Assembly: GCA_903932505.1 (NCBI GenBank)
Contig: CAIZGN010000628.1
Location: 1 to 36,916, forward strand
DNA from: Candidatus Hydrogenedentota bacterium
Lineage (GTDB): Bacteria > Hydrogenedentota > Hydrogenedentia > Hydrogenedentales > CAIZGN01
Length of the DNA: 36,916 nucleotides
Direction of reading: 5' to 3'
Translations under genes and position numbers: made by a program
Notes under the pieces: model-generated
Database searches by the model: none
Told to the model about the DNA's origin: nothing
What the model saw: the letters and a program-made list of their open reading frames with translations, nothing else
Shown: positions 22,441-29,191 of the stretch, one piece after another
Numbering within the stretch: the stretch's first letter is position 1
Layout of the letters: the number at the start of each line of letters is the position of its first letter

Positions 22441-22516
22441 GGGGCTGTAGCTCAGCTGGGAGAGCGCCGCGTTCGCAATGCGGAGGCCAGGAGTTCGATC
22501 CTCCTCAGCTCCACCA
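22441..22516 (+). tRNA. tRNA-Ala (anticodon CGC)
   Basis: A complete 76-base cloverleaf with encoded CCA. The acceptor stem GGGGCTG/CAGCTCC includes the G3-U70 wobble that identifies alanine tRNAs. D stem GCTC/GAGC; anticodon stem CCGCG/TGCGG with loop TTCGCAA (anticodon CGC, reads GCG); T stem AGGAG/CTCCT with loop TTCGATC. Its 3' half from base 22472 is the integration site of the element to its right and is duplicated at 29145-29191, so the gene stays intact. Confidence 0.97.
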
Positions 22517-22518
22517 AC
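22472..22518. repeat. attL: 47-bp core in the tRNA-Ala 3' half
   Basis: Identical over 47 bases to 29145-29191. It begins TTCGCAATGC in the anticodon loop and ends CCACCAAC just past the CCA end. The outer flanks differ (g...cg here, gt...gt at the right copy), which fixes the repeat limits. Confidence 0.95.
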
Positions 22519-22528
22519 CGAAAGCCTT

Positions 22529-22566
22529 GCCGCCCAATGGGTTATGAAAACAGCCTCTTGGGCGGC
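22529..22566 (+). terminator. Hairpin just inside attL, possible replacement tRNA terminator
   Basis: GCCGCCCAA (22529-22537) pairs perfectly with TTGGGCGGC (22558-22566) around a 20-base loop, followed by TTTCCTTTG. It lies 12 bases after the tRNA. The element has separated the tRNA from its original terminator (29203-29255), and this hairpin could take over. The T-run is poor. Confidence 0.45.
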
Positions 22567-22583
22567 TTTCCTTTGCCTTGCGC

Positions 22584-22605
22584 CATGTGTCCCGTATGTG
22601 TCCCA
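22584..22605. repeat. Left arm-type repeat pair (2 x ATGTGTCCC)
   Basis: Two ATGTGTCCC units 11 bases apart, together a 22-bp sequence repeated exactly at 28981-29002 near the other end. The 11-base period puts both units on one face of the helix. Best read as integrase arm-binding sites 65 bases inside attL. Confidence 0.7.
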
Positions 22606-22677
22606 CCGCGCCGAAAAAACGGGATCGTATACCCGCGAAGTTTTCCCTATACTTTCGCCCGCCTGAACACGAAACGA

Positions 22678-22702
22678 CCCCGCGCTAAGGAAAAACGCGG
22701 GG
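22678..22702 (-). terminator. Possible terminator of the element's gene string
   Basis: CCCCGCG (22678-22684) pairs with CGCGGGG (22696-22702), 37 bases after the stop of the small-terminase-like gene. The minus-strand tail TCGTTTCG is only moderately T-rich. Confidence 0.45.
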
Positions 22703-22739
22703 CCGGGAAAAGGGGGCCGTGGTGGCCCGTGCGTGGGGG

Positions 22740-23147
22740 TTATGGTTTAGCCATGGCTTGCTCAAGAGCAAGGAGCCGGGTTTCGACTTCCACATGTGCC
22801 GCCAGTTTCAGGGCGGTATCTAGAATGCCCAAAGCCGCGCGAACGCGGACGGCCTCTGCGGCATTGCCGTCCCGCACAATGGCCCGCAAGACTTCCACGG
22901 CTTCAACCGCACCCGCTGAAAGCCCGCGTGTGGCTTCCCTCAGTGCGTCGCATTGCGCCATGGCCATGGCTTCGCGGAATGCGTCCGTGGACGCCCACCG
23001 ATACGCGGTTCGCTGTGGAATGTTCTCGGCCTTCGCGGCCTTGCGTATGTCGCCATGCTCGAATACGGCGTTTGCAAACTTGCGGATCTTGAGTTCTTGC
23101 GGGCCGCCTATCGGTGTGCCACTGGTTGCCATTTTCTTGGACTCCAT
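22740..23147 (-). CDS. Small-terminase-like helix-turn-helix protein
   Basis: About 135 residues from ATG 23147 (GAGG 9 bases upstream; ATG 23132 is an alternative). The segment [32 protein letters not shown] is a homeodomain-like HTH as in phage small terminase subunits of the phBC6A51 type. It is followed by long helices ([54 protein letters not shown]) that would oligomerise. In phages such a protein recognises DNA for packaging; in satellites a private copy redirects packaging. No large terminase is present, so it would have to work with a helper's. It follows the 103-residue gene by one base (TAG-A-ATG). It could instead be a transcription regulator. Confidence 0.65.
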
Positions 23148-23148
23148 T

Positions 23149-27093: not shown

Positions 27094-27160
27094 GTTTTCG
27101 TCTCCTTGGTTTTGCGACTCGCGCCGCGTTTACCAGAGACTACCGCGTGTTTTTCGCTTG

Positions 27161-27244
27161 GAAAGTAGAAAGAAAGTAGGAAAGCCCGCGCACCCTTGTA
27201 TTTATTGGGCGGCGGGCCTCGAAAAGAAAGTAGGAAGAAACTAG
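27161..27244. repeat. Paired GAAAGTAG iterons around a hairpin, upstream of the HTH gene
   Basis: GAAAGTAG at 27161, 27172 and 27226, and GAAACTAG at 27237. Spacing within each pair is 11 bases and the pairs are exactly 65 bases apart. Between them GCCCGC (27184-27189) and GCGGGC (27212-27217) can pair around an AT-rich loop (TTGTATTTATT). The block overlaps the stop of the 144-residue gene. Probably Xis, replication-protein or regulator sites. Confidence 0.6.
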
Positions 27245-27675
27245 AACCGTGGTTTGTGTTGTATTGTGGGTATCATTTTGGTCACCTTGGAAAGCATTTT
27301 CTCGCGCTCTTTGACAAGCCAACGGTTAAACGAAGCCGGATCTATGCGGCGGTTTTTTCGCGTGCCGATACTTTCAAGGCCACCCGGCACGCACGCCTTG
27401 GTTATCGCGGTTCCGGCGGCTTCAATGGTGATGCTTTTCAGCGCCGGATAGTCCCGCGTGAAGCCTTCGCGCATATCGTAAAACTTTTGAGCGGCTTCCC
27501 CATGCGTGTGCCAGCCGGGCGGCGCCTTCGGTTTCGTGGCTGGTTCGGGAATGCCTTCAGCCTCACGCCACAGACGGCGAATGTGATCGCTCATGACGGC
27601 GCTCACCTGACGCTCGCGCTCGCGTTCAAGCGCAAGCAAGGCTTTGCTCGCTTCAATGGTTTCTTCAGGTGTCAT
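27241..27675 (-). CDS. 144-residue protein next to the integrase, function unknown
   Basis: It starts at ATG 27675, overlapping the integrase stop as ATGA. The N-terminal third is helical and charged (EETIEASKALLALERERERQVSAVMSDHIRRLWREAEGIPEP); the middle is basic and Pro-rich (ATKPKAPPGWHTHGEAAQKFYDMREGF); the C-terminus (RKNRRIDPASFNRWLVKEREKML) looks like it could bind nucleic acid. No known family is recognised. Cotranslation with the integrase suggests a role in recombination or its control. Confidence 0.62.
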   Translation of the reverse strand: MTPEETIEASKALLALERERERQVSAVMSDHIRRLWREAEGIPEPATKPKAPPGWHTHGEAAQKFYDMREGFTRDYPALKSITIEAAGTAITKACVPGGLESIGTRKNRRIDPASFNRWLVKEREKMLSKVTKMIPTIQHKPRF

Positions 27676-28967
27676 TGTGTGTTTTCCTTCGCGAATTCGA
27701 GCACGTTGGAGGCGTTTCCTCTGTCCAGCAACGCCACCGCCGCCGCCCGGTTGGCCGGTGCAAGGTGCGCATACCGCAAAACCATTTTTATGTCGGAATG
27801 GCCCAACAATTCGCGGACAACGTTCAAGTCCGCGCCCGCCTGTACCAGTTTGCTTGCGAAGTCATGGCGCATGTCATGCCAGCGGAACGCTCCGAAAAGT
27901 CCAGCGGCCTTGAGTACTTCGCGCCATGCGCCGTTACAGTGATCAAACTTGAGGCCCGTTTTCGGAGACTTGAACACAAGGCCCGTGCTGCCTGTTTGCT
28001 CGCGCCACGCTTGAAGCGTTTCCCGCGCCGTTTGGTTCAATGGAACATGGCGGCTTCGCGCGTTCTTAGCCACGGTGCCGCGCACCACAAGCGACGGGGC
28101 CGGGCCTTCAAGAGTTATGTCTCGCCATTCGATACTGAATAATTCATTTCTGCGAAGGCCACTATTCAGACTCAACAAAACCATGGCCCTCAAGTGATCG
28201 GCAAATTTGCACTTGCGAAGATCCGGCAACTCTTCAAGGTTTCGCGCCCGCCGCCATGCGTTGTAGCGGGTGCGGCGTTCCCTCAATTCATTCTCGCGGA
28301 AATTCAGTGCCGCCAAGAGCCGCGTCCCCTCTGCGGGTTCCAAGAAACGCGCCACCGCGCTTGTGTCCGCGCGGCCCAGCTTGATACCGGCCAACGGGTT
28401 TTCCGCCAGCATACCCCATTCCACGGCCTTTGAAAATGCCGCCCGCAATGCGGCGAAGTCTCGGCCTATCGTGGTTTCGGTGGCCGGTTTTTTGCGGCCT
28501 TTCAGTGGTGTTTTCAGCCGCGCGGCCCGGTGCTTTTCAAAGTCCCATTTGGTGAGTTCCGCCAACCGTTTGCTCAACAATGGCACAAAACCGCTCAGAA
28601 TGCGTGCTACTGCGTCCTTGTGGCTTTTCAAGCGGCCCGCCGCCCATGGTTGATAGTGCTCGGAAACGAATTTCCCCAGCGTCAGATCGGCGAGGTTCTC
28701 GCGCCGCGCCTGTGCCGGATCTTCCCCTTGGACAATGGCGGCATAGTGTTCGGCGGCCTTCTCGCGTGCCTGGGCACAAGCGAGCAAGGAGGCGTCGCCG
28801 ATCCGCACTCGGCCTCGAGCGCCGGTGGAAAGCCTGTATCGAAAGTAGAACATTTTGGCGCCCGACACCTGCACGCGGACTGATAGTCCCTTGGTGTCGG
28901 TATCGGCAACCTCGTATGGCGTTTCCTTTGGCGTGAGTTTTTCAATGGCCTTGTTTGTGAATTTCAT
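27672..28967 (-). CDS. Tyrosine recombinase (DUF4102-type integrase)
   Basis: 431 residues from ATG 28967, with GGAGA 5 bases upstream; the frame to 28979 adds only four residues. The N-terminus (about 1-85) is the DUF4102 arm-binding domain of P4-like integrases (KFTNKAIEKLTPKETPYEVADTDTKGLSVRV). A SAM-like core-binding domain follows. The catalytic domain has R272 in NSGLRRNEL, H364-x-x-R367 in WHDMRHDF, a GHSD motif and nucleophile Y399 in LRYAHL. It carries out site-specific recombination between the element and tRNA-Ala. It is the gene nearest attR and is read inward from a promoter at 29008-29036; arm-type repeats cover its leader. Confidence 0.95.
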   Translation of the reverse strand: MKFTNKAIEKLTPKETPYEVADTDTKGLSVRVQVSGAKMFYFRYRLSTGARGRVRIGDASLLACAQAREKAAEHYAAIVQGEDPAQARRENLADLTLGKFVSEHYQPWAAGRLKSHKDAVARILSGFVPLLSKRLAELTKWDFEKHRAARLKTPLKGRKKPATETTIGRDFAALRAAFSKAVEWGMLAENPLAGIKLGRADTSAVARFLEPAEGTRLLAALNFRENELRERRTRYNAWRRARNLEELPDLRKCKFADHLRAMVLLSLNSGLRRNELFSIEWRDITLEGPAPSLVVRGTVAKNARSRHVPLNQTARETLQAWREQTGSTGLVFKSPKTGLKFDHCNGAWREVLKAAGLFGAFRWHDMRHDFASKLVQAGADLNVVRELLGHSDIKMVLRYAHLAPANRAAAVALLDRGNASNVLEFAKENTQ

Positions 28968-28980
28968 GGCGCTCTCCATT

Positions 28981-29002
28981 CATGTGTCCCGTATGTGTCC
29001 CA
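28981..29002. repeat. Right arm-type repeat pair (2 x ATGTGTCCC) over the int start region
   Basis: Exact copy of the 22-bp sequence at 22584-22605. It begins 14 bases before the integrase ATG and ends 6 bases from the -10 box, covering the expected transcription start. Integrase bound here should block its own promoter (inference). Confidence 0.7.
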
Positions 29003-29007
29003 AGAGA

Positions 29008-29036
29008 ATTATACGCCAATGCAAACGAAAATACAA
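29008..29036 (-). promoter_or_regulatory. Integrase promoter
   Basis: On the minus strand TTGTAT (29031-29036), a 17-base spacer and a perfect TATAAT (29008-29013). Transcription would start near 29001, inside the arm-type repeat, and read the whole gene string of the element. Confidence 0.65.
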
Positions 29037-29144
29037 CCAGTAAACAGGGAGACGCTATTTTAGCCCTGTATTCATTGGGTGAAATGATACCGTTCCGTAT
29101 TCACAAGTTTACAGCGGAACATAGGGAAAGCAAGCAAGAACGGT

Positions 29145-29191
29145 TTCGCAATGCGGAGGCCAGGAGTTCGATCCTCCTCAGCTCCACCAAC
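29145..29191. repeat. attR: 47-bp copy of the tRNA-Ala 3' half
   Basis: A perfect copy of 22472-22518 without the 5' half of the tRNA; it is therefore not a functional gene. The integrase gene starts 178 bases to its left. Confidence 0.95.

Follow-up and report, generated by a model that had tools for sequence, protein, structure and literature searches.

A 6.7-kb element integrated at tRNA-Ala(CGC) in a Hydrogenedentota bacterium is probably a PICI-like phage satellite

Attachment sites and genes of the element

The DNA analysed here (the window) is a 36,916-nt stretch of contig CAIZGN010000628.1 from a Candidatus Hydrogenedentota bacterium, in which a 6.7-kb element resembling the phage-inducible chromosomal islands (PICIs) occupies positions 22472-29191. 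The element was found in a single genome, the genus of which has no second member in the set. Its integration target is a tRNA-Ala(CGC) gene (22441-22516, + strand; detected by ARAGORN and, with 63 bits, by the Rfam tRNA model), which was left intact. One core copy of the attachment site (att) lies within this gene at 22472-22518 and the second, a partial tRNA, at 29145-29191, both on the + strand. The original prediction had placed 47-bp direct repeats in this tRNA gene, and the two cores were indeed identical at 47/47 positions (52 bp at 96% when extended), spanning the part of the tRNA from the anticodon to the 3' end. A 45-base pattern derived from the repeat, searched with up to three mismatches, occurred at two sites in the 5.86-Mb genome, both of them the att cores, so that chance was excluded. 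Direct repeats and an own tyrosine integrase, the marks of site-specific integration in PICI-type satellites, are thus both present.

Just beyond the partial att core, a hairpin followed by TTTTC (29203-29244, + strand; -20.4 kcal/mol, z -2.6) is probably the original terminator of the tRNA, pushed 6.7 kb away by the insertion. The identical tRNA gene of a relative (G031) is unoccupied and has a terminator-like sequence directly behind it; its flanks are unrelated, and no orthologous empty site was found among the genomes searched, in which the genus is a singleton. The base composition was not distinctive (GC 0.55-0.61 within the element versus 0.55-0.62 outside). The region between 22472 and 29191 was confirmed as a discrete, intact, integrated mobile element.

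Ten genes, all open and all on the - strand, lie between the att cores. The tyrosine integrase (27672-28979, 435 aa) consists of Arm-DNA-bind_3/DUF4102 (2.4e-17) and Phage_integrase (1.1e-27) domains and matched phrog_1 at 6.7e-63. It shares a 4-nt overlap (ATGA) with orf144 (27241-27675), the positional counterpart of iolg in the phage-inducible chromosomal minimalist islands (PICMI); orf144 had no match in the family searches, and it weakly matched the integrase-adjacent gene of element L058 (hhalign 62%). Next comes an AlpA/Xis-like helix-turn-helix (HTH) protein of 70 aa (26881-27093), with a relative in L043 (1.7e-15), and then a primase-polymerase fused to an AAA_25 helicase-like ATPase (24728-26884, 718 aa). 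The start of the latter was corrected to what is probably the true one, the ATG at 26884, with which xis and primase also overlap by 4 nt. The element therefore carries an AlpA/Xis-type regulator along with its own primase, the match being weak for the regulator (HTH_17 3.3e-4, under the Pfam cut-off; phrog_66 excisionase 2e-4) and strong for Prim-Pol (1e-31) and AAA_25 (3.8e-25).

The distal half begins with orf68 (24547-24753, detected as an open reading frame only), which overlaps the primase end, followed by a gene for a coiled-coil protein of 198 aa (23954-24550), orf79 (23718-23957) and orf73 (23462-23683), likewise recognised as open reading frames. The orf68/coiled-coil and coiled-coil/orf79 junctions are 4-nt overlaps. 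Coiled-coil genes occupy similar places in L056, L082, L285 and L286; when those near small terminase (TerS) genes were compared between several elements, no homology could be detected, and a scaffold or capsid-size role is therefore not claimed. The last two genes form a pair: orf103 (23149-23460), a small protein with an 'xLxxRLxxLE' motif whose relative stands beside the TerS-like gene of L040 (E=2.1e-4), and the TerS-like protein itself (22740-23147), assigned through its relatives. The TerS start is probably 23147, which is preceded by GAGG and gives 135 aa, and not 23183 (147 aa), as corrected here. A strong terminator-like hairpin with 12 pairs, 9 of them GC, and a T-rich tail follows the last gene (22675-22705, - strand).

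Family searches of the element matched no capsid, portal, tail, large terminase (TerL) or other structural gene, and no relaxase, mobilisation or type IV secretion system family. PADLOC gave coiled-coil-level matches only and no defence gene, and the other family searches of the element gave no convincing defence-family match. The integrase, Xis-like protein, primase-polymerase/ATPase and coupled small genes that had been read from the sequence were accordingly recovered by family matches and 4-nt overlaps, and the predicted lack of structural genes between the repeats held as well.

Near each of its ends the element has one copy of a 22-bp sequence, CATGTGTCCCGTATGTGTCCCA (22584-22605 and 28981-29002, no strand assigned; 22/22 identical), made up of two ATGTGTCCC 9-mers with 11-bp spacing. 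From their position and design alone these repeats are inferred to be putative arm-type sites, of the sort that an arm-binding integrase (PF13356) would require. Paired 7-10-mers with 11-bp spacing at both ends were also seen in L055, L045, L119, L131 and L149, with differing sequences, and tandem words shared by both ends appeared in 0/300 shuffles for each element tested. L082 has a paired 20-bp repeat of a like kind. The design was not seen in L040, L052 and L056, which have other integrase types.

Relatives of the small-terminase-like protein

The TerS-like protein was used as the query in a tblastn search of 50,697 phage records. The search returned 35 records, all from Streptococcus (best E 7e-10) and, among the matches listed, all satellite phages; in the four records opened, the primase lay upstream of the matched stretch, and the annotation contained no structural gene. 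Besides one contig of 11.5 kb from feces, the reverse query retrieved 53 Streptococcus records (all satellites among the matches listed), and for two further family members from other genomes, 23/25 and 18/21 of the retrieved records were Streptococcus satellites. Given the kinship among the satellites, these matches are not independent. No plasmid relative was detected among 72,556 records.

Several of the relatives belong to terminase families or stand beside TerL. The Javan343 relative matched the TerS families phrog_641 (3.1e-8) and Terminase_2 (3.3e-4), and the L041 relative matched the TerS family phrog_2538 (1.3e-9). Compared with PDB, a seven-sequence profile (A2) matched a small terminase best (7JOQ, E=0.0073), with the alignment falling in the C-terminal helical region. 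In L087, a homolog of this same region stands immediately 5' of TerL (hhalign 95.6%), L041 weakly matched a gpP-like gene before TerL in phage MW202444 (E=8e-3), and in MT836267, an 11.3-kb circular fecal element, the TerS homolog overlaps TerL by 4 bp. Protein and alignment scans of IMG/VR and GTDB contigs for primase and TerS relatives gave none or almost none, the peptides having diverged too far; relatives were found by six-frame searches of genomes. The predicted identity as TerS, claimed in the original prediction for an HTH protein, holds: it is marginal for the sequence alone and well supported through its satellite and TerL-adjacent relatives. A packaging redirector is thus predicted by homology only.

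Small proteins beginning with xLxxRLxxLE were also observed beside TerS in L040 (7705-8016), L041 (3272-3499), L042 (1359-1565), L081 (8650-8889) and L285 (4446-4634), and the TerL of L286 (MT836267.1) starts with a similar motif, which may hint at an adapter between TerS and TerL.

The human-fecal record L286 (11.3 kb) has a 124-bp terminal repeat, indicating a circular assembly, and encodes an integrase, repressor-like and xis-like HTH proteins, a primase, RusA, TerS and a complete TerL. Nowhere in the record was a gene for a capsid, portal or tail protein seen. A satellite-like circle with its own TerL yet no capsid would be unusual.

Sister elements and known satellites

Sister elements of 5-10 kb were found at tRNA genes of other Hydrogenedentota from several genera. 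Among them, L040, L056, L043/L117, L088 and L089 carry int, xis, primase and/or a distal TerS. The tRNA-bounded elements within the taxonomic order of the host include L040 (5.2 kb, tRNA-Asn), which has the homologous TerS and the orf103 relative, L055 (5.6 kb, tRNA-Pro), and L052, L051 and L045 (7.1, 9.5 and 10.4 kb). They also include L056 (7.4 kb), which lies in tRNA-Ala(CGC) according to its repeat sequence; its integrase is of another type, and its TerS belongs to the phrog_57 type (7.8e-6). Some of these elements lack a recognisable TerS. L043/L117 and L088 have int-orf-xis-primase-TerS in common, with a second TerS subtype (phrog_2538 4.6e-4), and L089, at tRNA-Val, has a Terminase_2-like TerS at the contig end. 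Outside this taxonomic order, the 8.2-kb element L082 at tRNA-Leu has the homologous TerS. Several sister elements carry unrelated TerS types distally, and the presence of different types in the same slot argues that packaging is the conserved task.

The integrase clade is also represented in satellite-like islands of Nitrospira and Pseudomonadota, and the closest integrases outside the phylum belong to Rhodoferax and Nitrospira elements. Three such islands, L119 (Nitrospira), L115 (Rhodoferax) and L149 (Alphaproteobacteria), likewise run int, adjacent gene, xis, primase; L115 has a TerS gene (phrog_51 6.6e-12), L149 encodes a member of a related family, phrog_15261, and L119 and L149 share the arm-site design, whereas the accessory genes differ. 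L119 (JALWRU010000426.1, 1194-11178), a 10-kb element at tRNA-Ala(CGC), adds a 623-aa major-head/protease fusion (phrog_4523 9.9e-184) and is a candidate capsid-forming satellite. A fusion of a ClpP-type protease and a major-head protein was also noticed, together with a phrog_57 TerS, in the 9.9-kb IMG/VR record L201.

Among known satellites, the closest layout is that of PICMI, experimentally proven satellites of Vibrionaceae, which carry int, iolg (overlapping by ATGA and required for excision), alpA and primase, have no terS and are packaged as concatemers (PMC10803314). The element resembles them in its direct repeats, in the absence of capsid genes, in its size (6.7 kb versus 6.1 kb for PICMI115; PMC10803314), and in the order of int, an ATGA-overlapping gene, an AlpA-type HTH gene (PF12728 being among the PICMI models) and primase. 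The match between iolg and orf144 is positional only, orf144 having no named family. PICMI insert next to fis and use a DUF3987/DUF5906 primase, whereas the element has the tRNA-Ala(CGC) site, a Prim-Pol/AAA_25 protein, a TerS-like gene and five extra small genes; because of the site, the primase type and the TerS-like gene, it was not filed as a PICMI. The original prediction had regarded 6.7 kb as very small, which does not stand beside PICMI115, Javan245 (6.45 kb) and L040.

The satellite prophages/PICIs of Streptococcus (Javan series, PMC6813308) share with the element the homologous TerS-like protein downstream of primase, the integrase at one end, a similar size range and the lack of structural genes. 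In the records opened, however, two of their genes, the integrase and one for a DNA-binding protein, are transcribed divergently from the others, whereas all genes of the element run in one direction and no repressor was recognised; the other genes were compared by family searches only. The divergent transcription of a classical PICI and its Stl/Rpr repressor, which the helper phage relieves, are thus lacking, and for this reason the element was filed as PICI-like. AlpA-type induction, as in PICMI, may be the alternative to Stl/Rpr control. The PICI-type plan proposed originally therefore stands for the TerS, but the layout is nearer to the int-iolg-alpA-primase order of PICMI. Integrase, AlpA, primase and TerS are also part of the composition of capsid-forming PICIs (cf-PICIs) and all four occur in the element; the difference is that family searches of the element detected none of the genes for capsid, protease, portal and TerL. 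The cf-PICIs are the subject of Alqurainy et al. 2023, cited in PMC13376191.

Interpretation as a satellite and the alternatives

In summary, the element is best read as a PICI-like satellite whose int-iolg-alpA-primase front resembles that of PICMI and which has a TerS of its own, and as neither a PICMI nor a cf-PICI. The satellite interpretation held up in the main computational tests. We consider it quite probable that it is an integrated phage satellite of this bacterium, as had been proposed, in view of the TerS kinship and the sister elements of the same layout in the phylum, and its gene families suggest that it probably travels inside particles of another phage. The anatomy is given by the sequence, and each of the following steps is suggested by the named families. 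Helper infection would raise the AlpA-like protein, and the integrase would, with orf144 and the AlpA-like protein, excise the element when the helper phage is active. The primase-ATPase would replicate the excised circle. The TerS might then bind a pac-like site of the element and recruit the large terminase of the helper, so that satellite DNA would be loaded into helper procapsids; the heads might be of full size and hold concatemers, as in PICMI, or might be altered. Once injected from the particles into a fresh cell, the DNA would integrate at tRNA-Ala(CGC).

Several observations weigh against this interpretation. The TerS sequence by itself gave only a marginal match (phrog_2538, E=0.019) and none in Pfam. 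Its AlphaFold model, built from 3 sequences, was of moderate quality (pLDDT, the predicted local distance difference test score, 72) and showed an HTH and a long helical hairpin; the top PDB matches in the fold search were LysR-type HTH proteins at E>0.1, and several named matches in a viral fold library were TerS, none of them reaching E 0.001. Neither a Stl/Rpr-like repressor nor a capsid-size gene was recognised in the element. The 97%-complete genome contained no TerL (phrog_2, E<=1e-8) and no HK97-type capsid (PF05065), although a virulent or non-resident helper would escape such a search; the helper is therefore probably no resident tailed prophage, or escapes these models.

One alternative is a phage satellite that, like PICMI, is packaged with no TerS of its own, the HTH protein being a regulator that only resembles TerS. 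PICMI share the front half but lack TerS (PMC10803314), HTH domains are generic, and the solved structures nearest to the model, at weak E, are LysR-type HTH proteins with a linker helix. We nevertheless regard this possibility as unlikely, because the similarity reaches the C-terminal helical part (alignment A2), which matches 7JOQ and the TerL-adjacent L087 protein, and because unrelated TerS types fill the same distal slot in the sister elements. A remnant of a decayed prophage in which early genes and TerS were kept was already disfavoured and is very improbable. TerS and primase do occur in phages too, and neither TerL nor a capsid was found elsewhere in the genome; decay is nevertheless hard to reconcile with perfect att cores, identical arm sites, open and coupled genes and a terminator, with independent 5-10 kb sister elements of the same plan in several genera, or with a TerS type that is found mainly in satellites within the phage collection. 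Hardly any weight is given to an integrative island that replicates after excision and moves with the aid of a conjugative helper, by way of an unrecognised origin of transfer, or by transformation rather than by a phage. The replication module would suffice to maintain a circle, and a Streptococcus thermophilus satellite can move via natural competence (PMC13376191); the element, however, has no relaxase or mobilisation family, its TerS-like protein has no relative in the plasmid records, and the packaging-type gene is positionally conserved across the sister elements.

As a PICI-like satellite, the element belongs to a kind already known; what is new is its occurrence in Hydrogenedentota, insofar as no report of phage satellites in this phylum was found in the open-paper literature. 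It would extend phage satellites to an uncultured phylum and imply that tailed phages of Hydrogenedentota act as helpers, and it suggests that both the PICMI-like and the PICI-like design were put together from exchangeable modules. The satellite-associated TerS family common with Streptococcus, the int-iolg-alpA-primase block and the arm sites at 11-bp spacing offer anchors for finding more. A more speculative proposal, to which we give a low probability, is that this TerS type belongs to a packaging family kept largely by satellites in phyla far apart (Hydrogenedentota, streptococci and others), so that satellites would be an old, partly independent lineage exchanging packaging genes across phyla; the paired xLxxRLxxLE protein could then be an adapter, a similar motif starting the MT836267 TerL.

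Two further features of the same genome were noted. A second Prim-Pol/helicase gene (649 aa), whose N-terminus is similar to the primase of the element, lies at another locus (L054; G000:C42, 9215-13892), with a large tyrosine recombinase downstream, and possibly marks another integrated element. Just beyond the element in the window, a putative gene pair for a HigB/RelE-like toxin (96 aa) and an HTH antitoxin was recognised by eye only at 30537-31140.

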